Source: Christiangramia sp. OXR-203
GTDB taxonomy: Bacteria; Bacteroidota; Bacteroidia; Flavobacteriales; Flavobacteriaceae
Direction: 5' to 3'
DNA: 64,000 nucleotides
NCBI RefSeq assembly: GCF_034372165.1
Contig: NZ_CP139698.1
Location: forward strand, 3,286,001 to 3,350,000
The notes under the pieces were generated by a model, which was not told where the DNA came from, made no database searches, and was given only the letters and a program-made list of their open reading frames with translations. Below are positions 43,452 to 54,793 of the stretch, in pieces. How positions within the stretch are numbered: the stretch's first letter is position 1; every line of letters begins with the position of its first letter. The position numbers and the translations under genes were made by a program.

Positions 43452-44924
43452 TTAGTATCCTGGATTTTGCTCCCAATTGTTTCCTGCAAGCTCAATTTCG
43501 ATAGCCGGGATAGGGAATAATTCGTGTTTTCCTGTAACGAAACCGTCGATTTCATCTGCTGCTCTTCCTGTTCTTACCAAGTCGAAGAAACGATGCCCTT
43601 CTCCTACAAGTTCCAGTCTGCGATCTTCATAAATCTGATTTAGCAGATTATTACCAGAAAATGATACATCTTCCAGTCCGGCTCTGTCTCTTACTCTGTT
43701 CAAATAAGTTCTGGCACGATCTTCATTACCAGATTTGAAATTAGCTTCCGAAGCCATTAGTAGCACATCTGCGAAACGAATTGCGCGGTAGTTATTTGGA
43801 TTTGTAAGGTTTTGATCACCGGTATTCAAATCCCCAGCTCTTGCGATATATTTTCTGTTATAATATCCAGTATGCTCATAACCTACAGCATAGCTCGCTC
43901 CGGTTGCAGCAGCATGTGCTTCGATATCAAGAATAGCTACGTCTTTACGAATATCATCGTCTGAAAACTCATCGACTACTTCCTGTACCGGAACATTGAA
44001 ACTAAATCCAGAATCAAATACAGCATTTTCTGGATTTGGATAAGAAATGTTTCTTACACCATTAAATCCAACAGCCACATTTCCTTCTGAACATTGAAGA
44101 CACCCAAAACCAGCACCTTCTTTATCTGTATACTGAACTTCGAAAACTGCCTCCGCATTATTTTCGCCTTCTGGTTCAAATATGAAGTTATAATCCTGCA
44201 CGAGGGAGTAAGGTCCGCTAATTACAGGTTCGAAAGCAGTAGCCGCTTCTGCAAATTTATTCTGAAACAAATAAGCTTTTCCAAGCAAAGCCTGAGCTGC
44301 TCCCGAAGTTACACGACCTTTTACGCTTTGGACAGCCGGAAGGTTTGCCGCAGCGAACATAAGATCCTGCTCGATCTGAGCATAAACTTCAGCCTTTGGA
44401 GTTCTAGGAATATCGAATTGCTCTCCAAACTGGATTCTATTGTCTACCGCTAATGGCACATCTCCAAACCATTTTACCAGTTCGAAATAATAATAAGCTC
44501 TTAGAAATCTTGCCTGGGCAATGATTTCAGTCTTACCTTCAAAATCCAGAGCGTCCTGAAATTCAAGCACATAGTTTGCACGATTTACACCCGCAAACAT
44601 CCAGCTCCAGATATCTCTTAATTGCTGGTTTACAGGAGTATGCTCCATATTGTCAATTTCCTGAATTCCAGGCGTATCGTTCGCACTCTCACCACCCGCA
44701 AGGGTATTGTCTGAAGCGATCTCGCCCAGCATTACATTAAGGTAAGTAGATTGAAGCAGGTCATAAGCTCCTACTAGTGCAAGATCATAATCTTCGGGTG
44801 TATTAAAGAAATCCTCAGAATTTTCATCCTGGCTATCTACATCCACGAAGTCATCACTACATCCAGATAGCGCCAGAAATGCGAAGGCGAGTATCCAATT
44901 GATTGTATATAATTTCGTTCTCAT
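43452..44924 (-). CDS. susD: SusD/RagB family nutrient-binding lipoprotein
   Basis: Outer-membrane lid lipoprotein that captures oligosaccharide and closes over its SusC partner. 490 residues. Signal peptide with lipobox ALSGC (Cys22), acidic start DDFVDVDSQDENSED; TPR-like helices in the N-terminal half (ARFLRAYYYFELVKWFGDVPL is the classic SusD segment). C-terminal hallmark: NYRAIRFADVLLMASEANF, RTYLNRVRDRAGL, DRRLELVGEGHRFFDLVRTG and LFPIPAIEIELAGNNWEQNPGY. All in family order. Its ATG lies 4 bp beyond the susC stop, so the two are coupled. Confidence 0.97.
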   Translation of the reverse strand: MRTKLYTINWILAFAFLALSGCSDDFVDVDSQDENSEDFFNTPEDYDLALVGAYDLLQSTYLNVMLGEIASDNTLAGGESANDTPGIQEIDNMEHTPVNQQLRDIWSWMFAGVNRANYVLEFQDALDFEGKTEIIAQARFLRAYYYFELVKWFGDVPLAVDNRIQFGEQFDIPRTPKAEVYAQIEQDLMFAAANLPAVQSVKGRVTSGAAQALLGKAYLFQNKFAEAATAFEPVISGPYSLVQDYNFIFEPEGENNAEAVFEVQYTDKEGAGFGCLQCSEGNVAVGFNGVRNISYPNPENAVFDSGFSFNVPVQEVVDEFSDDDIRKDVAILDIEAHAAATGASYAVGYEHTGYYNRKYIARAGDLNTGDQNLTNPNNYRAIRFADVLLMASEANFKSGNEDRARTYLNRVRDRAGLEDVSFSGNNLLNQIYEDRRLELVGEGHRFFDLVRTGRAADEIDGFVTGKHELFPIPAIEIELAGNNWEQNPGY

Positions 44925-44928
44925 CTAA

Positions 44929-47900
44929 TTAAAATTTCAGATTAATTCCTAGCATATAAATTCTTGGCACTGGATAGAATCCCTGGTCTATACCACCACC
45001 AATTGGAGCTCCATTAGAAGCTGAAGGATCATACCCGCTGTATTCTGTAAGCGTAAATGCATTATTTACTGAAGCATATACTCTAAACTTCTCTACACCA
45101 GTATTTGCAATAAGATCTGAATCCAGTGTGTACCCAACCTGTACATTTTGTAATCTCAGGTAAGAACCGTCTTCTACGAAGAAATCTGAAAACTGGTTGT
45201 TGCTGGTAGCACCAACGGTCACTCTTGGGAAGCTATCTGTCGTTCCTGGTCCAGTCCATCTACCTAAGAAAGCATTAGTTCTATTCGTATTTGGCTGATT
45301 TCTTTCAAAGTTTCTTACGATCTCATTTCCGAGGGAAGCAAAAGCATATGCGTTAAAATCCCAGTTCTTGAAGGTGAACCCAATATTTGCACCCATGGTA
45401 AGGTCTGGAATTGGATCTCCAATATCTGTTCTATCATCACTATCAATAACTCCGTCACCGTTTTGATCTACAAAACGAATATCTCCTGGTGCAGCGTTCG
45501 CTTGCGTTGCAGCAGCATCAACTTCTGCTTGCGTCTGGAAAATTCCATTGGTTTCTAATCCATAGAAATATCCAATAGGTTTTCCTGGCTCCATTCTGGA
45601 TGGTGGTTCCTGTCCTATTCCAAAAACTCCTCCGGGAATGAGTCCACTTTCACTATTTACGTAAAGCACTTCATTTCTAAGAGCTGTAAGGTTATAGTTT
45701 ACATTAAACTTAAAATTATCATTTACAACCTGGTTATATCCAATAGAGAATTCAAGTCCCTCGTTTTCAACTCCTCCACCATTTACAAACGGTGCAGAAG
45801 ATCCAGGAGCAGCAACTCCTAAAATTCCTGATACCTGCGGAATCACAAGAAGGTCTTCGGTTTTCTTTTTAAAATAATCGATAGTAACATCAATACTGGA
45901 ATTGAAGAACCTGGCGTCAAGTCCAATATCAAGTGTCTTCTGTTTTTCCCATTTAATTTCAGGGTTTCCCAGAGCACCACTTGCCTTTCCGAAGATAATT
46001 TCATCATTAAATACATAAGCACCTTCACCGTTCAGTAGAGAGGCATATCTAAAAGCAGGAATTCTATCATTTCCAATGATCCCGTAACTACCTCTTAATT
46101 TTAAGAAATTTAAAGTACCGTTGTCATTAATAAAATCTTCATCTGAAATTACCCAACCTACAGAGGCAGATGGGAACCATCCAAATTTGTTTTCAGGACC
46201 AAAAGCAGTCGAACCATCACGTCTTATCAAACCAGAGAATAAATATTTTCCCTCATAGTCATATTGAACACGTGTGAAGTAAGACAATAATCTAGTATCG
46301 AAAGTATCTCCCCCATTCTGATAGTTATCTACAACTTCCGCAGCATTTGAAACTCTCGCCGCGTCATATTCATTAGATGGAAGTTCAAATCCTGTTAAAG
46401 AGGCAAGATCTCCGGTAGTTTTAAAAACAGACATACCCAATAACCACTTAAGATTATGATCACCAAAGCTGTCATTATAGGTTAAGAAGTTATCCCAGGT
46501 ATAATCTCTATAGATCTCAAAGTTCTCTGTTACATTATTACGGTCTACGTTGAAAACCTTTCCAGAACCATAGAAAACCTCTGGAGAGAAATATCTTCCA
46601 TCAACTTCAGAATAGTTGAACTGGAATTGAGTCTTCGCAGTTAATTTATCCCAAATAGTATATTCCAGTCCACCAACACCACTAATTTTATCTACACGTG
46701 TATCATTGAAAGCGTTGTTGATCTGAGCAAGTGGATTGACAACTTCATTTCCAAGCCCTTCAGCCAGAGAGAAATTTCCATCAGCATCACGCACAGGAAT
46801 ATTCGGATTCATGTTCACCGCATTGAAAAGTACAGACCCAAGTGCATTTTCAGCTAAAGTCTTACGGTTACTATTAGTATAGATCCCGGATAAATTAAGT
46901 TTCAGGTTATCTATGATTTCAAGATTATAATTTACACGCCCTGTAAAACGATCATAATTAGACTTGCTTCCACCAACAATACCATCCTGGTTAAAGTAGG
47001 AAGCTCCAAAAGAATACTTTGATCGATCTCCACCACCAGAAATATTCAGGTTCATATCAGACATTGGCGCTGTTGTAAAAACCTCATCCTGATAATCTGT
47101 CCCTTCACCAAGGTTTCTATAATTTGGGTAAGGAGGATTTTGACCAGCGGCTGCGTAAGCTTCGTTAACGATTACTGCATATTCGGTTGCATTCAAAGCA
47201 GGTAATCTTCGTGTAGTTTGCTGAACACCTGTATAAGCATCAAATTCAACCTGAAGATCTGCATTGTATGAACCTGTTTTAGTAGTAATAAGAATTACCC
47301 CGTTGGCAGCTCTAACACCATAAATACCAGCAGTTGCATCTTTCAACACATTAATGCTTTCAATATCATTTGGGTTAATAACACTAAGGTCTTCGATCAC
47401 GTTACCATCAACCAGGATCAGAGGTCGGTTATCACCATTGGTACTTATACCTCTAATATTAATTGTGGAAGCACTTCCTGGAGAACCTGAAGTAGAGGTG
47501 ATATTCACCCCTGCTACTCTACCCTGTAAGGCCTGTTCAACTCGTGCCGGGTTCAAATCCTCTATGGTTTCTGAACCTACCACACTTACCGCACCGGTTA
47601 TTTCCTTTCTTGACTGAGTACCATACCCAATCACTACTACTTCATTTAATGCTTCTGAATCTGTTTGAAGCGTTACATTGATCGTTTGTTGATCATTCAC
47701 TGTAATTTCCTGGGTTTGAAAACCTAAATAACTGAACTGAAGTACATCTCCAGAGGAGATATTCTGTACCGTATAATTTCCGTCAAAATCTGTAGTAGTA
47801 CCTCTTGACTCATTTTTTACGATCACATTTACTCCCAGTAAAGGCATTTTGTTCTCATCGGTGATAGTTCCGCTAACCGAAAACGATTGCGCGTAAGCAC

Positions 47901-47949
47901 CGAAAAACCCGCTTAGAAATACAATCAAAAGACAGGTAAATTTCCTCAT
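44929..47949 (-). CDS. susC: SusC/RagA family TonB-linked outer-membrane transporter
   Basis: TonB-dependent transporter that imports glycan oligosaccharides with SusD. 1006 residues. Signal peptide (cleaved after about Ala20), a carboxypeptidase-regulatory-like domain with LLGVNVIVKNESRGTTTDFDG and VLQFSYLGFQTQEI, the SusC box NEVVVIGYGTQSRKEITGAVS near 107, and a plug with GRVAGVNITSTSGSPGSASTINIRG and NDIESINVLKDATAGIYG. The last ~750 residues are barrel strands and the protein ends in a Phe (MLGINLKF). No obvious N-terminal signalling domain of the FecR type, so regulation probably lies elsewhere. First gene of the laminarin operon. Confidence 0.97.
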   Translation of the reverse strand: MRKFTCLLIVFLSGFFGAYAQSFSVSGTITDENKMPLLGVNVIVKNESRGTTTDFDGNYTVQNISSGDVLQFSYLGFQTQEITVNDQQTINVTLQTDSEALNEVVVIGYGTQSRKEITGAVSVVGSETIEDLNPARVEQALQGRVAGVNITSTSGSPGSASTINIRGISTNGDNRPLILVDGNVIEDLSVINPNDIESINVLKDATAGIYGVRAANGVILITTKTGSYNADLQVEFDAYTGVQQTTRRLPALNATEYAVIVNEAYAAAGQNPPYPNYRNLGEGTDYQDEVFTTAPMSDMNLNISGGGDRSKYSFGASYFNQDGIVGGSKSNYDRFTGRVNYNLEIIDNLKLNLSGIYTNSNRKTLAENALGSVLFNAVNMNPNIPVRDADGNFSLAEGLGNEVVNPLAQINNAFNDTRVDKISGVGGLEYTIWDKLTAKTQFQFNYSEVDGRYFSPEVFYGSGKVFNVDRNNVTENFEIYRDYTWDNFLTYNDSFGDHNLKWLLGMSVFKTTGDLASLTGFELPSNEYDAARVSNAAEVVDNYQNGGDTFDTRLLSYFTRVQYDYEGKYLFSGLIRRDGSTAFGPENKFGWFPSASVGWVISDEDFINDNGTLNFLKLRGSYGIIGNDRIPAFRYASLLNGEGAYVFNDEIIFGKASGALGNPEIKWEKQKTLDIGLDARFFNSSIDVTIDYFKKKTEDLLVIPQVSGILGVAAPGSSAPFVNGGGVENEGLEFSIGYNQVVNDNFKFNVNYNLTALRNEVLYVNSESGLIPGGVFGIGQEPPSRMEPGKPIGYFYGLETNGIFQTQAEVDAAATQANAAPGDIRFVDQNGDGVIDSDDRTDIGDPIPDLTMGANIGFTFKNWDFNAYAFASLGNEIVRNFERNQPNTNRTNAFLGRWTGPGTTDSFPRVTVGATSNNQFSDFFVEDGSYLRLQNVQVGYTLDSDLIANTGVEKFRVYASVNNAFTLTEYSGYDPSASNGAPIGGGIDQGFYPVPRIYMLGINLKF

Positions 47950-47996
47950 GTGTTTTAAAATTAAATTTGCTTTTACAATATATTAACATGAAGTGC

Positions 47997-48191
47997 GTAG
48001 AGAGGATTTTCAACCTTTACAAAATATCTACAATTATAGATTTATCAATTTTAAGCGCCTCAAATTACAGAAATCGCAATAAGGATAGGCGTTAGATGCC
48101 ATTTTCAAGAACAGTAGCTAAGGTGTTAAAATTTAGGAATTTAAGCGAATGTAGAGGTAATGTAGAGTTATTTTCTACAGTTGTAAAGGTT
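47997..48191. promoter_or_regulatory. TGTAGA/TCTACA motif cluster in the susC promoter region
   Basis: In the 240-bp gap between the regulator and susC: GTAGAG at 47997-48002, TCTACA at 48027-48032 (inside the near-palindrome TCTACAATTATAGA), TGTAGAG at 48150-48156 and again at 48161-48167 (11-bp period), and TCTACA at 48174-48179. Also AACCTTTACAA (48012-48022) is inverted as TTGTAAAGGTT (48181-48191), the second arm touching the regulator stop. A good TAnnTTTG was not found on the minus strand. It is the most likely binding region for the adjacent regulator. Confidence 0.55.
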
Positions 48192-51030
48192 ATAGAGAAA
48201 GAATATATTCGGTTAAATTTGTTTCCCGGTCAAGATCCATCTTCTTACGCAAACGATATCGTTTAATTTCTACACTTTTCACCGAAATATTTAAAAGAGG
48301 AGCAATTTCTTTAGAGCTAAGATTTAGTCTCAAATAGGCACATAATTTGAGATCGTTGGAAGTAAGTTCCGGATGTTTTGATTTAATCTTTTTGAAAAAG
48401 TCTTTATCAGCATTGCTAAATGCTTTTTTGAAGAATTTCCAGTTGTCTTCTTCGCTAATGTCCTTATCGATGGTATTAATTACCGATTGTACTTTTCCGG
48501 TTTTTTCGTATTCCTTCAGTTGATCTTTAATCTTGGTTAGAAACTCGTTCTTCTTGATCAGGCTCATGGTAGTTACCGCAAGTTCCCGGTTTTTACCTGC
48601 CATATCCTGTTCCAGTTTCTCATTTTGCAACTTGATGATTTCCTTTTCGGCCTCAAGATTCTTCAGTTTGAGTGCGCGTTCATTTTCTGCCAGGTATTTT
48701 CGATGATGTCTCCTGTTCATTAAATGAACCGCATAAAGAATAAGCAGAAAGATCAGGACATGTAAAATGATGGCGCCAGTACTTAAATAGAAAGGTCTCT
48801 CTACGGTAAATGATATGATTGCAGGTTCAGTTTCAGAATTACCAACCCGGGCTTTAACCTCAAAAATGTAATCCTCGAAATTCAGATTTTCGTAAGACAC
48901 TTCATGTTCTTCACTCCATGTACTCCAGTTTGAAGAAAGACCAACGAGACGGTAACTGTATTTGGTGTTGGTGTATTTTTTGAAGATCGGCGCGCTAAAC
49001 TCAAATTTGAGGTTATTACGACGGAATGGAAGTTCTATCTCTTCCGAAGAATTTAAAGAAACTCCGAGTGAATCTACAGAGCTTGCTGTAATTCGATCTA
49101 CGCTGATCTCGAAATCCTCAAAATCCAAATCTGCCGCTGTATCATCAAAGCTTACATAACCATTGGCAACTCCAAGTAAATACCTGTCATTATTTAATTT
49201 ATTAATGTTCTCATACCCTACCGCAATATTCCTATAGTCCTGGTCAATAAAAATATAGTCAAGCTGGTAATCACTGCCAATTCCCTCAGGCTCAATTGAA
49301 AAAATACCTTCTTCGGAAAACCCCCATAGAACATCATCTTCCTCCACGATCATTCTACCGGAAACCCTTTCCACATCGCTTACCAGATGATTTAAAGAAT
49401 TATCCAGATCGAATCGATCTTCAACCTGATCAAATTTGTAAATATTGGCGAGGCTACTATAATATAAACTATCATTGAAATGAAATACTCCGGAAGTTAT
49501 TCCAGATTCCTCTTCAAACTTGTAGTTGATGGTATTAGAAGCAGCGCTTAGCGAATCGTTAAGCTGAAGATTAAAAACTCCTTTATGCTCATTACCTATC
49601 CAGATACTGAGATTCTTATCAACCACAATACTTTTGGAGGAATGTGGAAAGTTATTCAGCATAGGCAGATCTTCAAACCCTGAATCCTCTTTCCGTAGAA
49701 AACTGATTCCATTATAATGTCCCTGTATATAGAGGTCCTCCTTATACTTCTTAACGATCCAGGTTCCTAGCCGCTCGCTGATCTTATCTGCAGTGGCGCC
49801 TTCAATCAGGAACGTCCCACTATTATGGCCACAAAACAGATTACCGTCGATCTCATCCAGAAACCAGACCTGTCCATTAGTTCCTGGTATTAGCTGAAAT
49901 TCTTCGGAATCATCCTCTTTGACATATAGTCCCTGGTTTGTGCCCAGGTATAACAAATCGTCTTTTTTATATGAATCGTAGACTGAGCCAATTTTACCCC
50001 TGTTATCCTGAAAAGATCTAAATGTAGACCCAAGGTCAATAACGCTAATTCCGTAATCTAGTCCTGTCCATACATTGCCAGACTGATCAAGGTGCAAATC
50101 CAGGGTTGTATTATTTTGCAAAATATTATTCTGATCAAATCTACCAATGATCCTGCCATCCTGAGCGATCTCAATCACACCACTTCCTACTGTTCCCAGT
50201 ACTAGATTTCCATTATCAAGATCCAGTGCATCGAGCGCATTTGGTTTTCCAATATTATCACTAAGCTGTCCATAAAACTGTTCCAGCAAACCTGATCGCA
50301 TTTTATAAAATTCTGAATTCCCGGTAATCATGGAAAGCCCATCCTCGTCGAGATCGTATAAATGCATGATCGCAATATCTCCTAATTGCTCCCCGCTAAT
50401 GATTTGCCTGGGCTGGCCTTTTTCAAATTTGTACAATCCTTCGCCAACAAGCTGAAAGTAAAGTTCATCTTCAAAATTGAAAATATTGGAAACAGGTTTC
50501 CCTGTTGGATTAGCCATTTTCGTAACCTTATCACGTTCCAGGTCGTATAGATATATGCCTGCAAAACTTCTAAAAACAACCTGTCCATCTATATATTCAA
50601 TATCCCAGAATTGTTCGCCATCATTAAGATCAGGGAACTTTGAGATAAGACTTTGAAAAACCAGCTCTCCATTATTTCTTGGAGTCCAATATCCCGCTTC
50701 CATGTAAGCTCCCGTGAAGATTTTTTCTTTTACAACTTTTACAGATCTAACTATAGATTTATTGGGTACCGGGTATAATCTCCAACGCTCGCCATTATAT
50801 TCAAGCAAACCTGTGCTATTTGCGAAATACAGGTTCTTGTTATCAGCCTGGGAAATCATCCAGTTCTGATTGCCTGCGGAATAGTCATTGGGGCTGAAAT
50901 TGGTAACCGGAGGGAGTTCCTGCGCATATGTTTGCAGATCACATACTAAAAGTCCGCTAAGAATAAGCATGAACAGCATTCTTGAATGCTGGATCTCAAA
51001 AACATTAAACTTAAACTGAATCCTGAACAA
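48190..51030 (-). CDS. Propeller / Y_Y_Y membrane sensor with LuxR-type DNA-binding domain
   Basis: A 946-residue one-protein transmembrane regulator. Signal-like N-terminus (MLFMLILSGLLVCDLQTYAQ; ATG at 50979 is a possible alternative start). Residues ~40-640 form beta-propeller repeats of the two-component-regulator-propeller type (for example LYFANSTGLLEYNGERW, NVWTGLDYGISVIDL). Next is a Y_Y_Y domain (NTKYSYRLVGLSSNWSTWS), one transmembrane helix near 745-766, a coiled coil, and a LuxR-type helix-turn-helix near 885-940 (LTSNDLKLCAYLRLNLSSKEIAPLLNIS, SVKSVEIKRYRLRKKM). There is no histidine kinase or receiver, so it differs from hybrid HTCS regulators. Position suggests control of the laminarin operon. 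Confidence 0.92.
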   Translation of the reverse strand: MFRIQFKFNVFEIQHSRMLFMLILSGLLVCDLQTYAQELPPVTNFSPNDYSAGNQNWMISQADNKNLYFANSTGLLEYNGERWRLYPVPNKSIVRSVKVVKEKIFTGAYMEAGYWTPRNNGELVFQSLISKFPDLNDGEQFWDIEYIDGQVVFRSFAGIYLYDLERDKVTKMANPTGKPVSNIFNFEDELYFQLVGEGLYKFEKGQPRQIISGEQLGDIAIMHLYDLDEDGLSMITGNSEFYKMRSGLLEQFYGQLSDNIGKPNALDALDLDNGNLVLGTVGSGVIEIAQDGRIIGRFDQNNILQNNTTLDLHLDQSGNVWTGLDYGISVIDLGSTFRSFQDNRGKIGSVYDSYKKDDLLYLGTNQGLYVKEDDSEEFQLIPGTNGQVWFLDEIDGNLFCGHNSGTFLIEGATADKISERLGTWIVKKYKEDLYIQGHYNGISFLRKEDSGFEDLPMLNNFPHSSKSIVVDKNLSIWIGNEHKGVFNLQLNDSLSAASNTINYKFEEESGITSGVFHFNDSLYYSSLANIYKFDQVEDRFDLDNSLNHLVSDVERVSGRMIVEEDDVLWGFSEEGIFSIEPEGIGSDYQLDYIFIDQDYRNIAVGYENINKLNNDRYLLGVANGYVSFDDTAADLDFEDFEISVDRITASSVDSLGVSLNSSEEIELPFRRNNLKFEFSAPIFKKYTNTKYSYRLVGLSSNWSTWSEEHEVSYENLNFEDYIFEVKARVGNSETEPAIISFTVERPFYLSTGAIILHVLIFLLILYAVHLMNRRHHRKYLAENERALKLKNLEAEKEIIKLQNEKLEQDMAGKNRELAVTTMSLIKKNEFLTKIKDQLKEYEKTGKVQSVINTIDKDISEEDNWKFFKKAFSNADKDFFKKIKSKHPELTSNDLKLCAYLRLNLSSKEIAPLLNISVKSVEIKRYRLRKKMDLDRETNLTEYILSL

Positions 51031-51178: not shown

Positions 51179-54100
51179 ATGAGCATAATTACTAAACTAA
51201 CCCTACAAACACAAGTCGGCAGCAAAACTTTATTTCTTGGAATTCTATTCGCATTTCTTGGAAATATGACCGGATATTCTCAAACGAATTCGAAAGAGGT
51301 CGTGCATTCTGTTTATGTCACTTCCAATACAGGACTTCGTTCTAATGAAGATAATAAGCAAATACTCGATCAAATCGTAAAGTCCTCCCAGGCAGGTGAA
51401 TCTAACAGTTTGGTGATGGTCGGGAATATCGTACCACAAAGCGGGTTTCCAGATAAGGATAACGGACGTTCTCAGGTGGAAACAGATTTAAAGAAAAATC
51501 TGCTGGATAAGATTAAAGATTTTAACGGAAAGATCATTTATACCCCTGGCTATAATGAATGGCAGGAAGACGCTCCAGATAACATCGATGACCTGGAATC
51601 CTTCTTACAGGATACCCTGGAATCTGATTTCTGGCCAAATGATGGTTGCCCAATTGAGAGTGAAAGCCTTAGTGACGATGTGCAGCTTATAATGATAGAT
51701 TCTCAATGGTATATCGAAAACTGGGATGATCATCCTTATATCAATAACAAATGTGAGATCAAAACAAGGCTTCAGTTTCTGGATGAATTTAATGATGAAT
51801 TAGAGGATAGCCAGAGAAAAACAGTTCTTGTAGCTGTTCATCATCCTGCGATGACGCAAACCAAAATTGGATTTTTAGAAAAGATGTTAGGTCATGGTAC
51901 CCAAACAAGTCGCAATCCGCAGCTAAAAAAACTGATGGGTAGTCTCGAAGCGCTTGCCAGACAATATAATGATGTCATTTTCCTTTCAGGTAAAGATAAA
52001 AATCTTCAGTTCGTACATGATGACGGGATCGAACAGATCATTACTGGGGTCACTAAAGAAATTGAGAAGGCGAGACCAGATAAAGAAGAAGGTGATTTTG
52101 TAAGTTATGAACTCGGTTATGCCAAGATCAATATCTACAAGAACGGGGCATCAAACGTAGAATATTTCTCGGTTTCCCCAGAAGGTGAAAAACAGATCTA
52201 CAGTTACGAAATGGCGAGGGAACGACCAACTCTAGACGAAGTAGAATGGCCAGATACCAAATTAGGTAAAACTACTACCACTTCTGTTTACACTGAAGAA
52301 GAAACCAATAAGGACGGACTTTACAAAGCACTGTGGGGAGAACATTACAGATCTCTATACAGTAAAAAATTTGAATTCCCTGTTCTTTATTTAGACACTA
52401 TTCCGGGGAATATGAAAGTACTGGGTGCCGGAGGTGGACATCAATCAAGATCGCTGGGATTCATTGATGACGATGGACACGAATATACTTTGAGAGCTTT
52501 GAAGAAAAGTGCACTTCAGTTTTTGCAGACTACCGTGATCACAAATCACTATGTTGAAGATTATTTAGAAAACACGGTAGCTGAACGATATGTACAGGAT
52601 TTTTACACTACAGCTTTTCCTTACGGTACTTTCCCGGCAGGAAAATTTATGGACGAACTTAATATTTTCCACCCGAATTCTGAACTTTACTATGTTCCTA
52701 AACAGGAAGCATTAGGGGTTTATAATGAGGAATATGGTGACGAACTATATATGTTCGAAGCACATATTGGAGGAGAAAACAAAGATCTACCAATTTTTGA
52801 TGGAGCTGAAGATATCCTGAACTCATCAGATCTACTTCTGGAAATGCAGGAATCAAAAGATGCTTATGTAGATGAAGAGATCTACATTAGAGCAAGGCTT
52901 CTCGACATGTTCCTGGGTGACTGGGATAGACATGAAGGACAATACGAATGGGCAGAATTCGAGGACGAAGAAGGTATGAAAAGATATGTGCCCATTGCAA
53001 AAGACCGTGACCAGGTATTTTCTAAAACTGATGGTTTTATACTATCCTTACTTCGTGTAGGTTTCCCTCAAATTAGAGCGATGGAACCATTTACAGAAAC
53101 TGTAAAAAGACCAAAATGGTTCAACCATGCTGGATATCCATTAGACAAAGCAGTAATTCGAGACAACAACTGGAATACCTGGAAGGAACAGGCTGAATAT
53201 CTTCAGAATACTCTTACAGATGAAGTTATTCAGGAAGCTTTCGATGTATTACCTGCAGATATAGCAGATGATGAATACGTAAAGGACATCAAAAGCACTC
53301 TTAAGGTAAGACGAGGGAACATGATGGAGATCGCACGTGAATACTACGATTACCTGGTGAAATTTGATATCTTCCTTGGAACCGAAGATGATGATGCTTT
53401 TCTTATCACTCATAAACCTGACGGAATTACGCAAATAGAGCTAACCAATGAAGATGGAAAAGTAGTTGCTCAAAAAACTTACGATAGTGAGGAGACCAAA
53501 GAAGTATGGATCTATGGACTTGATGGTGATGATGAATTTAAGATCGTAGGTGAAGGTTCTTCTCTAGTAAAACTAAAAGTTATTGGTGGCGAAGAGAATG
53601 ATATTTATGACTTTCAGAATACAAAAAAGGCAAAACTTTACGATTACAAGAGTAAGGATAACACCATAAAAACTTCAGGTGCAAATAAAATGCTTGTAGA
53701 CTCTTACGATATCAATAACTACGATCCTAAAAAGAGAAAAAGTAACCAATTCACCTTTTTTCCTAGTGCCGACTTTAACTCAGACCAGGGATTCAGCTTA
53801 GGGGTTAAAAATACATTTACTACCTATGGTTTGGTTCGTAATCCATTTACATCTCAACATAATCTCTCTGCAAACTACTATTTTGCGACCCAAGGATTTG
53901 ATGTTGGCTACTATGGCGAATTCGCAAACGTATTCTATAAATGGAATTTAGGAGTAGATGCCTATTATTCAAGTCCGAATTTTGTGATTAACTATTTTGG
54001 AACAGGAAATGATACAGAGTATGATGACGACGATGTTTCCAGGGATTTCAACAGGGTGAAAATTGAACAATGGAGAATTGCACCTTCACTTATATATAGA

Positions 54101-54793
54101 AAGAACAATAATGTATTCTTCAGTATTAAACCAATGATCGAATCGAAGCAGGTTTCTTACGATGCAAATAGAATTGTAGCCGAAACTTTTGATCAGGATA
54201 ATGATGTTTTTGAAGAACAACTATACGCTGGTGCAGAGGTGAATTACAACTATTATAATAAGGATAGAGTTGCATTTCCATCAAGAGGGATTGAAGTGGA
54301 TCTAACCGCGGGTTATAAAAGCAATATTGATGAGTTTGACAATAAATTCGCTTACGTAAGACCTATGCTTTCTTTAAATTATCCATTACACGAAAGTGGT
54401 TTTGCGGCTATTGCGACAAAAATAGGTGGTGAAGCGATCCTGGGAGATGAGTACGAATTCTATCATGCGGCAACACTTGGCGGCGGAAATAGAAATACGC
54501 TTAGAGGTTATCGTAATGAACGTTTTAATGGCAAATACGCATTCTATCAGAATATTGATATTCGAAGTGGGATCGCTCAATTCAGAACTAATTTTATCCC
54601 AATTCGTATGGGAGCCAGCATTGGTTATGACTACGGTAGAGTTTGGGTAGATGATGATGATAGTAACGAATGGCATTCCAACGTGGGTGGATCGATCTTT
54701 ATCAACGCGTTCAAAGCCTTTACCGGAAACATTGGATACTATGTTGGGGACGAAGGAGGTCGTTTGAACTTCACCGTCAACTTTGACTTCTAG
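51179..54793 (+). CDS. Outer-membrane fusion: degenerate metallophosphoesterase, kinase-like segment, Omp85-type barrel
   Basis: A 1204-residue protein. Signal peptide to about residue 36 (LGNMTGYSQ). Residues ~43-330 follow the layout of calcineurin-like phosphoesterases, but the metal motifs are altered: GD becomes VGNIVP, GNHD becomes PGYNEW, GHxH becomes SGKDKNLQ; only VAVHHPAMT looks normal. Residues ~410-720 are kinase-like: Gly-rich GAGGGHQSRS with Lys442/443, then LGDWDRHEGQ (Asp583) and KDRDQVF (Asp609/Asp611), as in CotH/FAM20-type kinases. Residues ~880-1204 form an Omp85/surface-antigen barrel with GGGNRNTLRGYR (1101-1112) and terminal NFDF. The domains are read directly; the kinase idea is inference. 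Divergent from the regulator gene. Confidence 0.78.
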   Translation: MSIITKLTLQTQVGSKTLFLGILFAFLGNMTGYSQTNSKEVVHSVYVTSNTGLRSNEDNKQILDQIVKSSQAGESNSLVMVGNIVPQSGFPDKDNGRSQVETDLKKNLLDKIKDFNGKIIYTPGYNEWQEDAPDNIDDLESFLQDTLESDFWPNDGCPIESESLSDDVQLIMIDSQWYIENWDDHPYINNKCEIKTRLQFLDEFNDELEDSQRKTVLVAVHHPAMTQTKIGFLEKMLGHGTQTSRNPQLKKLMGSLEALARQYNDVIFLSGKDKNLQFVHDDGIEQIITGVTKEIEKARPDKEEGDFVSYELGYAKINIYKNGASNVEYFSVSPEGEKQIYSYEMARERPTLDEVEWPDTKLGKTTTTSVYTEEETNKDGLYKALWGEHYRSLYSKKFEFPVLYLDTIPGNMKVLGAGGGHQSRSLGFIDDDGHEYTLRALKKSALQFLQTTVITNHYVEDYLENTVAERYVQDFYTTAFPYGTFPAGKFMDELNIFHPNSELYYVPKQEALGVYNEEYGDELYMFEAHIGGENKDLPIFDGAEDILNSSDLLLEMQESKDAYVDEEIYIRARLLDMFLGDWDRHEGQYEWAEFEDEEGMKRYVPIAKDRDQVFSKTDGFILSLLRVGFPQIRAMEPFTETVKRPKWFNHAGYPLDKAVIRDNNWNTWKEQAEYLQNTLTDEVIQEAFDVLPADIADDEYVKDIKSTLKVRRGNMMEIAREYYDYLVKFDIFLGTEDDDAFLITHKPDGITQIELTNEDGKVVAQKTYDSEETKEVWIYGLDGDDEFKIVGEGSSLVKLKVIGGEENDIYDFQNTKKAKLYDYKSKDNTIKTSGANKMLVDSYDINNYDPKKRKSNQFTFFPSADFNSDQGFSLGVKNTFTTYGLVRNPFTSQHNLSANYYFATQGFDVGYYGEFANVFYKWNLGVDAYYSSPNFVINYFGTGNDTEYDDDDVSRDFNRVKIEQWRIAPSLIYRKNNNVFFSIKPMIESKQVSYDANRIVAETFDQDNDVFEEQLYAGAEVNYNYYNKDRVAFPSRGIEVDLTAGYKSNIDEFDNKFAYVRPMLSLNYPLHESGFAAIATKIGGEAILGDEYEFYHAATLGGGNRNTLRGYRNERFNGKYAFYQNIDIRSGIAQFRTNFIPIRMGASIGYDYGRVWVDDDDSNEWHSNVGGSIFINAFKAFTGNIGYYVGDEGGRLNFTVNFDF

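Follow-up and report, generated by a model that had tools for sequence, protein, structure and literature searches.

A predicted kinase-like domain beside an inactive-looking phosphatase in an Omp85 barrel protein of Bacteroidota

What would a kinase-like domain be doing on an outer membrane barrel, next to a phosphatase that looks inactive? The question is raised by a gene of Christiangramia sp. OXR-203 (Flavobacteriaceae) located at positions 51179 to 54793 of a 64,000-nucleotide stretch of contig NZ_CP139698.1 (positions 3,286,001 to 3,350,000), the whole of which is called the window here. The gene is a single, intact open reading frame (ORF) on the forward strand, with an ATG start, encoding 1,204 residues. 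An earlier note, made from the DNA letters alone, had described one chain in three parts, and the intact ORF, the motifs and a full-length structural model bear this out; the motifs that it listed (PGYNEW, HH, GKDKN, a Gly-rich loop, Lys, GDWDRHEGQ and KDRDQVF) are all present in that order. The reading that we favor, with somewhat better than even confidence, is that of a kinase-like enzyme that is exported and anchored in the outer membrane by its barrel, in which the phosphatase has been retained as a non-catalytic part. The features of the gene are as follows.

51179 to 54793, forward strand: whole gene, made up of a pseudophosphatase, a kinase-like domain, a beta linker domain and an Omp85 barrel (ORF and full-length model)
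51179 to 51283, forward strand: putative N-terminal export signal, residues 1 to 35, hydrophobic, ending in TGYSQ, without a lipobox (by eye)
51290 to 52213, forward strand: calcineurin-like phosphoesterase domain with lost metal ligands, residues 38 to 345 (alignment to an intact paralogue and relatives)
51545 to 51562, forward strand: lost GNHD site, reading PGYNEW, residues 123 to 128 (alignment)
51839 to 51844, forward strand: retained HH, H221-H222; the loop that follows HH in intact relatives is missing here (alignment)
51989 to 52003, forward strand: lost GHxH site, reading GKDKN, residues 271 to 275 (alignment)
52325 to 53383, forward strand: predicted protein-kinase-like domain, residues 383 to 735 (AlphaFold model, pLDDT 92.1, pTM 0.91; Foldseek matches to kinases)
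52430 to 52444, forward strand: Gly-rich loop G418-G419-G420-H-Q422 between strands 1 and 2, in GGGHQS, 418 to 423 (model, alignment)
52505 to 52507, forward strand: K443, in LKK 441 to 443, at the end of strand 3, equivalent of the nucleotide-binding Lys (conservation)
52916 to 52942, forward strand: catalytic-loop equivalent, G580-D581-W-D583-R-H585-E-G-Q588 (conservation of D583)
53003 to 53011, forward strand: D609-R610-D611, the metal-binding (DFG-like) position after strand 8, in KDRDQVF 608 to 614 (conservation; register with CotH DYDNTF)
53363 to 53668, forward strand: beta-rich linker domain with acidic GLDGDDEF and GGEENDIYDF stretches, residues 729 to 830 (sequence and model)
53741 to 54790, forward strand: 16-strand Omp85 (BamA/TamA-type) barrel, residues approximately 855 to 1204 (model, Foldseek, NCBIfam match below the cut-off)

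Fold and motifs of the middle domain

The middle domain was modeled with AlphaFold from an alignment in which the window domain was joined by 57 of the 80 loci retrieved by a two-kinase-motif scan. The order of the elements in the model is that of a kinase, with strand 1, the Gly-rich loop, strand 2, strand 3 with K443 at its end, a helix carrying D474, more strands, a helix leading into GDWDRHEGQ, two strands and then DRD. When residues 383 to 735 were compared with the Protein Data Bank (PDB) by Foldseek, eight matches had E values of 1e-3 or below, all of them to kinase-fold proteins: CtkA (2.2e-5), PI4KIIalpha (3.0e-5), two chains of CotH (3.1e-4), RIO2, PI4KIIbeta, COQ8A and MSMEG_1954, which we take to be a kinase-fold protein. 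HipA (rank 9), HipT (rank 11) and Fam20 (rank 28; E value of 5.3e-3) came below. CtkA was also the top match of a sequence profile searched against the PDB, with the DRH motif aligned, and hhalign against 30 CotH proteins placed GDWDRH in register with GNWDxY and DRDQVF with DYDNTF. The kinase fold that had been proposed for this region is thus supported by the model, which puts the domain, remotely, within the protein-kinase-like fold.

The domain is not covered by any Pfam or NCBIfam model in the window protein, nor in 37 members going by 25 of the 32 Pfam families matched. Within that scope there was no match to HipA (PF07804) or FAM20. CotH (PF08757) gave matches in 2 of the 37 members without reaching its cut-off (best E value of 0.058), and LepB_N gave one (E value of 0.035); neither is convincing. 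The whole-chain search of the window protein reached the cut-off of no Pfam model, and phmmer against PDB sequences returned nothing at E values up to 10. We therefore rejected assignment of the domain to the HipA or CotH family, neither of whose models was reached.

Since the two-motif scan favors intact motifs, and its 80 loci are biased accordingly, conservation was judged on two sets assembled without a motif filter, 49 relatives found by whole-protein similarity and 53 proteins from loci across the phylum. K443, D583, R439 and D581 were kept in all 49 relatives and D609, D611 and Q588 in 48. Among the 53 phylum-locus proteins, the counts were 53 for D609, R439 and D581, 52 for K443 and D611, 49 for D583 (Gly in three, Glu in one), 49 for Q588 (Asn in four) and 43 for G420. 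D581 is thus Asp in 102 of 102 unfiltered proteins, and in 128 of 129 proteins of an older set. The earlier note had asked whether Lys442/443, Asp583 and Asp609/611 are invariant: K443 and the three Asp residues nearly are, and K442, which is Lys in only 25 of the 49 relatives, is not. The note had named two outcomes that would refute its reading, a fold unrelated to protein kinases and unconserved Lys and Asp residues, and neither was observed. Homologues with as little as 27% identity have the motifs in kinase order.

Some copies depart from this pattern. Phosphatase-kinase-barrel paralogues at loci L275, L278 and L281 read ADFGKHEDN, with Gly for D583, H585 kept and Asn at the fifth position after the catalytic Asp (D+5); a gene for polyphosphate kinase 1 (PPK1) is nearby in these genomes. 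At L162 and L166, adjacent divergent kinase-lipoprotein pairs combine GDWSRREDQ, in which the catalytic Asp and the His are lost, with GDWDRHEGQ, resembling a pseudokinase-kinase pair.

The C-terminal part had been described as a surface-antigen barrel. This was confirmed by the full-length model of the mature protein (pLDDT 87.4, pTM 0.84, 47 sequences), in which 16 barrel strands were counted from the DSSP string and whose best Foldseek matches were BamA and TamA (E value of 1.3e-13); all 50 matches listed were to the barrel. NCBIfam Omp85_fam matched residues 1028 to 1204 (E value of 1.8e-13, 50.8 bits), below its cut-off of 200. The barrel also has the LRGY motif and the C-terminal Phe. 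By the model, it is an Omp85-superfamily barrel related to BamA and TamA.

Repeated loss of the phosphatase site

The same genome encodes a 1,238-residue paralogue (L032:5400-9116) that matches Pfam Metallophos (PF00149; E value of 8.9e-10). Its N terminus has a lipobox-like SCAS, unlike the lipobox-free window protein. The window protein aligns with this paralogue without matching the PF00149 model. Between the paralogue and the window protein, the first Asp is replaced by Asn, GDN by GNI, GNHD by GYNE and GHEH by GKDK, with HH unchanged; the altered GNHD and GHxH sites and the kept HH had been pointed out in the earlier note. One of the seven scored metal-site residues (D, D, N, H, H, H, H) is left, which is not the site of an active calcineurin-like phosphoesterase. 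An alignment of 49 proteins showed the same state in the genus orthologues, with Asn at the first Asp, GN[ILV] for GDN, GNHD altered, GHxH broken and the loop after HH absent.

We then mapped this state onto a tree of the kinase-like domain, calling a phosphatase dead when five or fewer of its seven ligands were kept, a rule of our own. The tree held 109 of 129 proteins, drawn from the similarity search and from the 80 two-motif-scan loci of named genomes; left out were 14 of the 22 genus orthologues and 6 rows that were partial or masked, after earlier removal of 1 truncated and 2 duplicate hits. The phosphatase could be scored in 104 rows, of which 30 were dead and 74 intact. The dead/intact label required five changes, at least four of them on starred branches; gain and loss are not distinguishable on this tree, and we assign no direction to the changes. 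The earlier note had asked whether the ligands are lost only in the window's subgroup. The tree argues against this, the dead state taking at least four to five changes.

In the 30 dead-phosphatase rows, K443, D583, H585, Q588, D609 and D611 are each kept without exception; the deviations lie elsewhere, with one Asn for D581, one Trp for R610 and one Ala for Q422. Three tandem copies were seen at locus L035. In two of them the phosphatase is dead and the kinase motifs are complete; the third has seven of seven phosphatase ligands and degraded kinase motifs.

Selection was estimated from the 231 pairs among the 22 genus orthologues, in nearly all of which dS was saturated. The median dN/dS was 0.037 for the dead phosphatase (2 usable pairs), 0.029 for the kinase-like domain (4 usable pairs) and 0.021 for the barrel (3 usable pairs). 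Mean dN over all 231 pairs was 0.213, 0.170 and 0.178, respectively. Given these low ratios and the higher mean dN, the dead domain evolves slightly faster than its neighbors, yet it is constrained by purifying selection. The low dN in every domain, although dS is saturated in nearly all pairs, argues against decaying junk. As the dead phosphatase has been retained, its role in the window copy is probably structural or regulatory.

Distribution and gene neighborhood

A similarity search of 59 genomes (the own genome, genus, family and order) gave matches in 42. Among the 24 genomes of the genus, including that of OXR-203, 23 have an orthologue and all 24 a second paralogue of approximately 37% identity. 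A standalone protein matching only residues 380 to 726 or so was found in 22 of them, two of these being less than 75% complete; in the OXR-203 genome it is L031:6610-7890 (426 residues), in addition to the 1,238-residue paralogue. Across a sample of 395 Bacteroidota genomes, the kinase-like domain occurs in 142. ORF lengths point to four architectures: phosphatase, kinase and barrel (approximately 1,240 residues); kinase and barrel (850 to 960); kinase and linker, lipobox-like by eye (520 to 590); and kinase alone (approximately 430). When 72,556 plasmids were searched by tblastn with the standalone domain, five records matched (three Hymenobacter, one Persicobacter and one Parabacteroides); four of these relatives are annotated as hypothetical proteins and the fifth has no annotation.

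Kinase-barrel genes are often found near genes for PPK1, a PF00300 histidine phosphatase (which we label SixA-like), HD-PycTM (an HD domain with a Pycsar-type transmembrane domain, PF18967) and SdiA-regulated proteins (PF06977); in some cases CotH, a Porin_O_P match and PAP2 are close by as well. One PF06977 member had an additional phytase-like match below threshold; we presume both families to be propellers.

The association with PPK1 was counted in 78 of the 142 positive genomes, 74 of which have PPK1. In 33 of these 74 genomes, which are relatives and not independent, PPK1 lies within 16 kb of the kinase gene, compared with approximately 1.2 expected under random placement; the limit was set after distances of 13 to 14 kb had been seen in one family. 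Eighteen genomes have it within approximately 8 kb. The 33 genomes fall under eight family codes. Code f38 accounts for 16 of them, at 13 to 14 kb in 15 cases and at 8 kb in one; in the remaining 17 the distance is at most 6.1 kb. HipA genes, taken as a control, were within 16 kb of a kinase gene in none of 15 genomes with both listed, which argues against an artifact that any gene would show.

The commonest neighbor of the kinase gene is HD-PycTM, present at 76 of 134 loci and one gene away at 43. In the OXR-203 genome, an HD-PycTM gene (L032:4159-5391) diverges from the intact paralogue, the listed ORFs being 8 bases apart. At the two-motif-scan loci, HD-PycTM was near 36 of 57 intact and 6 of 17 dead copies, and a conserved protein of approximately 284 residues (e.g., L066:8459-9313) was near 38 and 0, respectively; the member of the latter family that was searched had no Pfam match. 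The 52 phylum loci were hand-picked from the 395-genome sample. CotH adjacency decided the choice of the first two, and since some of the windows had been positioned so as to take in PPK1, its presence in 20 of the 52 was not used as evidence. HD-PycTM was found in 32 of them and an SdiA-regulated gene in 25, and at least one of HD-PycTM, the SdiA-regulated gene and the histidine phosphatase in 35 (42 if PPK1 is counted). CotH genes were near 3 of 12 kinase-barrel loci, two of the three having been picked for CotH. Many phosphatase-kinase-barrel genes also have nearby a conserved protein of approximately 790 residues (47 loci; e.g., L114:983-3355) without a Pfam match; its OXR-203 member has a GAF match only, below threshold.

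The window copy itself lies between genes for a Y_Y_Y regulator and a HAD hydrolase, the latter present under 22 locus labels, window included. Upstream, on the other strand (window positions 43452 to 51030), are a SusC/SusD pair and the Y_Y_Y/LuxR-type regulator, and we found no evidence tying them to the gene. The neighbors of the window copy (SusCD, Y_Y_Y and HAD) and of the standalone L031 copy gave no functional clue, and no kinase copy of this genome is near either of its two PPK1 genes.

Possible activity, alternatives and known systems

Were the domain active, a nucleotide or other phosphate donor would sit between the Gly-rich loop, K443 and D609/D611, D583 would be the catalytic Asp and Q588 (D+5) would supply the second metal ligand; the phosphate would go to an envelope substrate, be it a protein, a lipid or a glycan. 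These bacteria may thus phosphorylate components of their envelope. As with BamA and TamA, whose N-terminal domains are periplasmic, the periplasmic side is the most likely site of action. Phosphotransfer, the side of the membrane, the donor, the substrate and the role of the dead phosphatase are inferred. In many relatives, the calcineurin-like phosphatase of the same chain could reverse or balance the transfer; in the window's clade, the dead phosphatase would most likely act as a scaffold, bind the substrate or have a regulatory role, and the kinase would then work in one direction. The linkage to PPK1 suggests polyphosphate metabolism, and polyphosphate as the donor is speculation. A fuller scheme, in which Bacteroidota-wide outer membrane kinases, working where ATP is absent, use exported, PPK1-made polyphosphate to phosphorylate components of the envelope, the on-chain phosphatase is an off-switch and the window copy is a one-way writer with a scaffold phosphatase, is quite improbable as a whole.

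Several observations weigh against an active enzyme and against parts of our argument. Over the eight best Foldseek chains, TM-scores by query were low, at 0.24 to 0.40 (for CtkA, the score was 0.40 by query and 0.49 by target, with 11% identity in the fold alignment), and the relation to known kinases is therefore remote. The CtkA profile matches were weak (E values of 0.029 and 0.021), and hhalign gave a P value of 0.0088 and a probability of 4.6% for CotH, and 0.11 and 0.5% for 30 HipA proteins, with which the DRH region alone aligned. D583 is lost in 4 of the 53 phylum-locus relatives and other copies read GDWSRR, so that some copies must be inactive. For a kinase, Gln is an unusual residue at D+5, and the periplasm is regarded as lacking ATP. 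Most rows of the tree come from a scan that selects kinase motifs, the dN/dS values derive from a handful of unsaturated pairs (for the dead domain, 2 of 231), and the window copy is near neither PPK1 nor HD-PycTM.

Instead of proteins, the enzyme might phosphorylate lipids, inositol phosphates or glycans, its target being a component of the outer membrane next to the barrel. PI4KIIalpha and PI4KIIbeta stand at Foldseek ranks 2 and 6, DRHxxQ is like the DRHxxN of PI-kinases, the domain is tethered to a membrane, and PAP2, the Porin_O_P match and the SdiA-regulated protein occur near some relatives. The protein kinases CtkA and CotH score equally well, however, and the substrate side lends no support; we consider this alternative less likely than not. 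Slightly less likely still is that the domain is a pseudoenzyme, which would bind nucleotide, phosphate or polyphosphate and serve the barrel as sensor or scaffold while transferring no phosphate. The lack of periplasmic ATP, Gln at D+5, the persistence of relatives with Gly or Glu for D583 and the GDWSRR copies adjoining GDWDRH copies in two genomes would fit it, but the catalytic set is nearly invariant in the 49 unfiltered relatives while the phosphatase site of the same chain has drifted.

Were the N-terminal domains, like that of PlpD, to reach the cell surface by way of the barrel or together with it, the kinase would act outside the cell. The periplasmic placement of these domains in BamA and TamA makes this unlikely. 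Such delivery is reported for the PlpD patatin domain and raised for the "Metallo" proteins discussed below in the available text of PMC4104836, but that text also reads the lipobox-like N terminus, found in many intact relatives, as an anchor to the periplasmic face in Omp85 lipoproteins. That the domain is not kinase-like and its motif match coincidental is highly improbable: sequence-only scores to known kinases fall under the normal thresholds, but the model is of high confidence, the Foldseek matches are kinases, the motifs stay in order in distant homologues, and their conservation together with the predicted fold argues against chance.

We compared the favored exported, barrel-fixed kinase-like protein with known systems. 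It resembles CtkA/HipA-type kinases in its best fold and PDB profile matches, both to CtkA, and in the DRH catalytic motif, and differs from them in the low fold identity, the lack of a HipA_C match, export and fusion to a barrel. With CotH spore coat kinases (5jd9) it shares the fold and the register of GNWD/DYDNTF with GDWD/DRDQVF; CotH lacks the DRH motif and the barrel. The secretory kinases FAM20C and FAM20A likewise act outside the cytosol and have DRH, and their pairing is resembled by the neighboring copies, one that looks active and one that looks inactive, in two genomes. Beyond the motif there is no sequence match to FAM20, which has Glu where the window protein, bacterial and barrel-tethered, has Gln at D+5. 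PlpD-type patatin proteins also have an enzyme domain N-terminal to an Omp85 barrel, with patatin and POTRA in place of phosphatase and kinase.

That phosphoesterase-barrel proteins were already known, as the earlier note held, is correct: in its available text, PMC4104836 (Heinz and Lithgow, 2014) describes an Omp85 "Metallo" subfamily with a PF00149 domain and a barrel without POTRA domains. It names that domain a metalloprotease, whereas PF00149 is the calcineurin-like phosphoesterase model, whose site is dead in the window's clade; the word kinase is absent from that text, and a kinase-like domain between phosphoesterase and barrel sets the window protein apart from the description. The available text of PMC12611786 and PMC12045153, on the BAM and TAM of Bacteroidota, mentions neither kinase nor phosphatase, and that of PMC10281475 concerns an unrelated TonB-dependent receptor. 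The note's author had met no description of the kinase-like center, and our literature search yielded no account of a kinase-Omp85 protein; most subscription papers and all preprints were outside its coverage, and absence is not proven.

The repeated death of the phosphatase beside a conserved kinase-like domain offers a natural example of a pseudophosphatase retained for a role other than catalysis. If the domain is active, a family of outer membrane-tethered kinases would be present in 142 of 395 sampled Bacteroidota genomes, yet without a Pfam or NCBIfam domain model. Activity would also raise the question of which phosphate donor serves outside the cytoplasm, for which the link to PPK1 provides a concrete first candidate.

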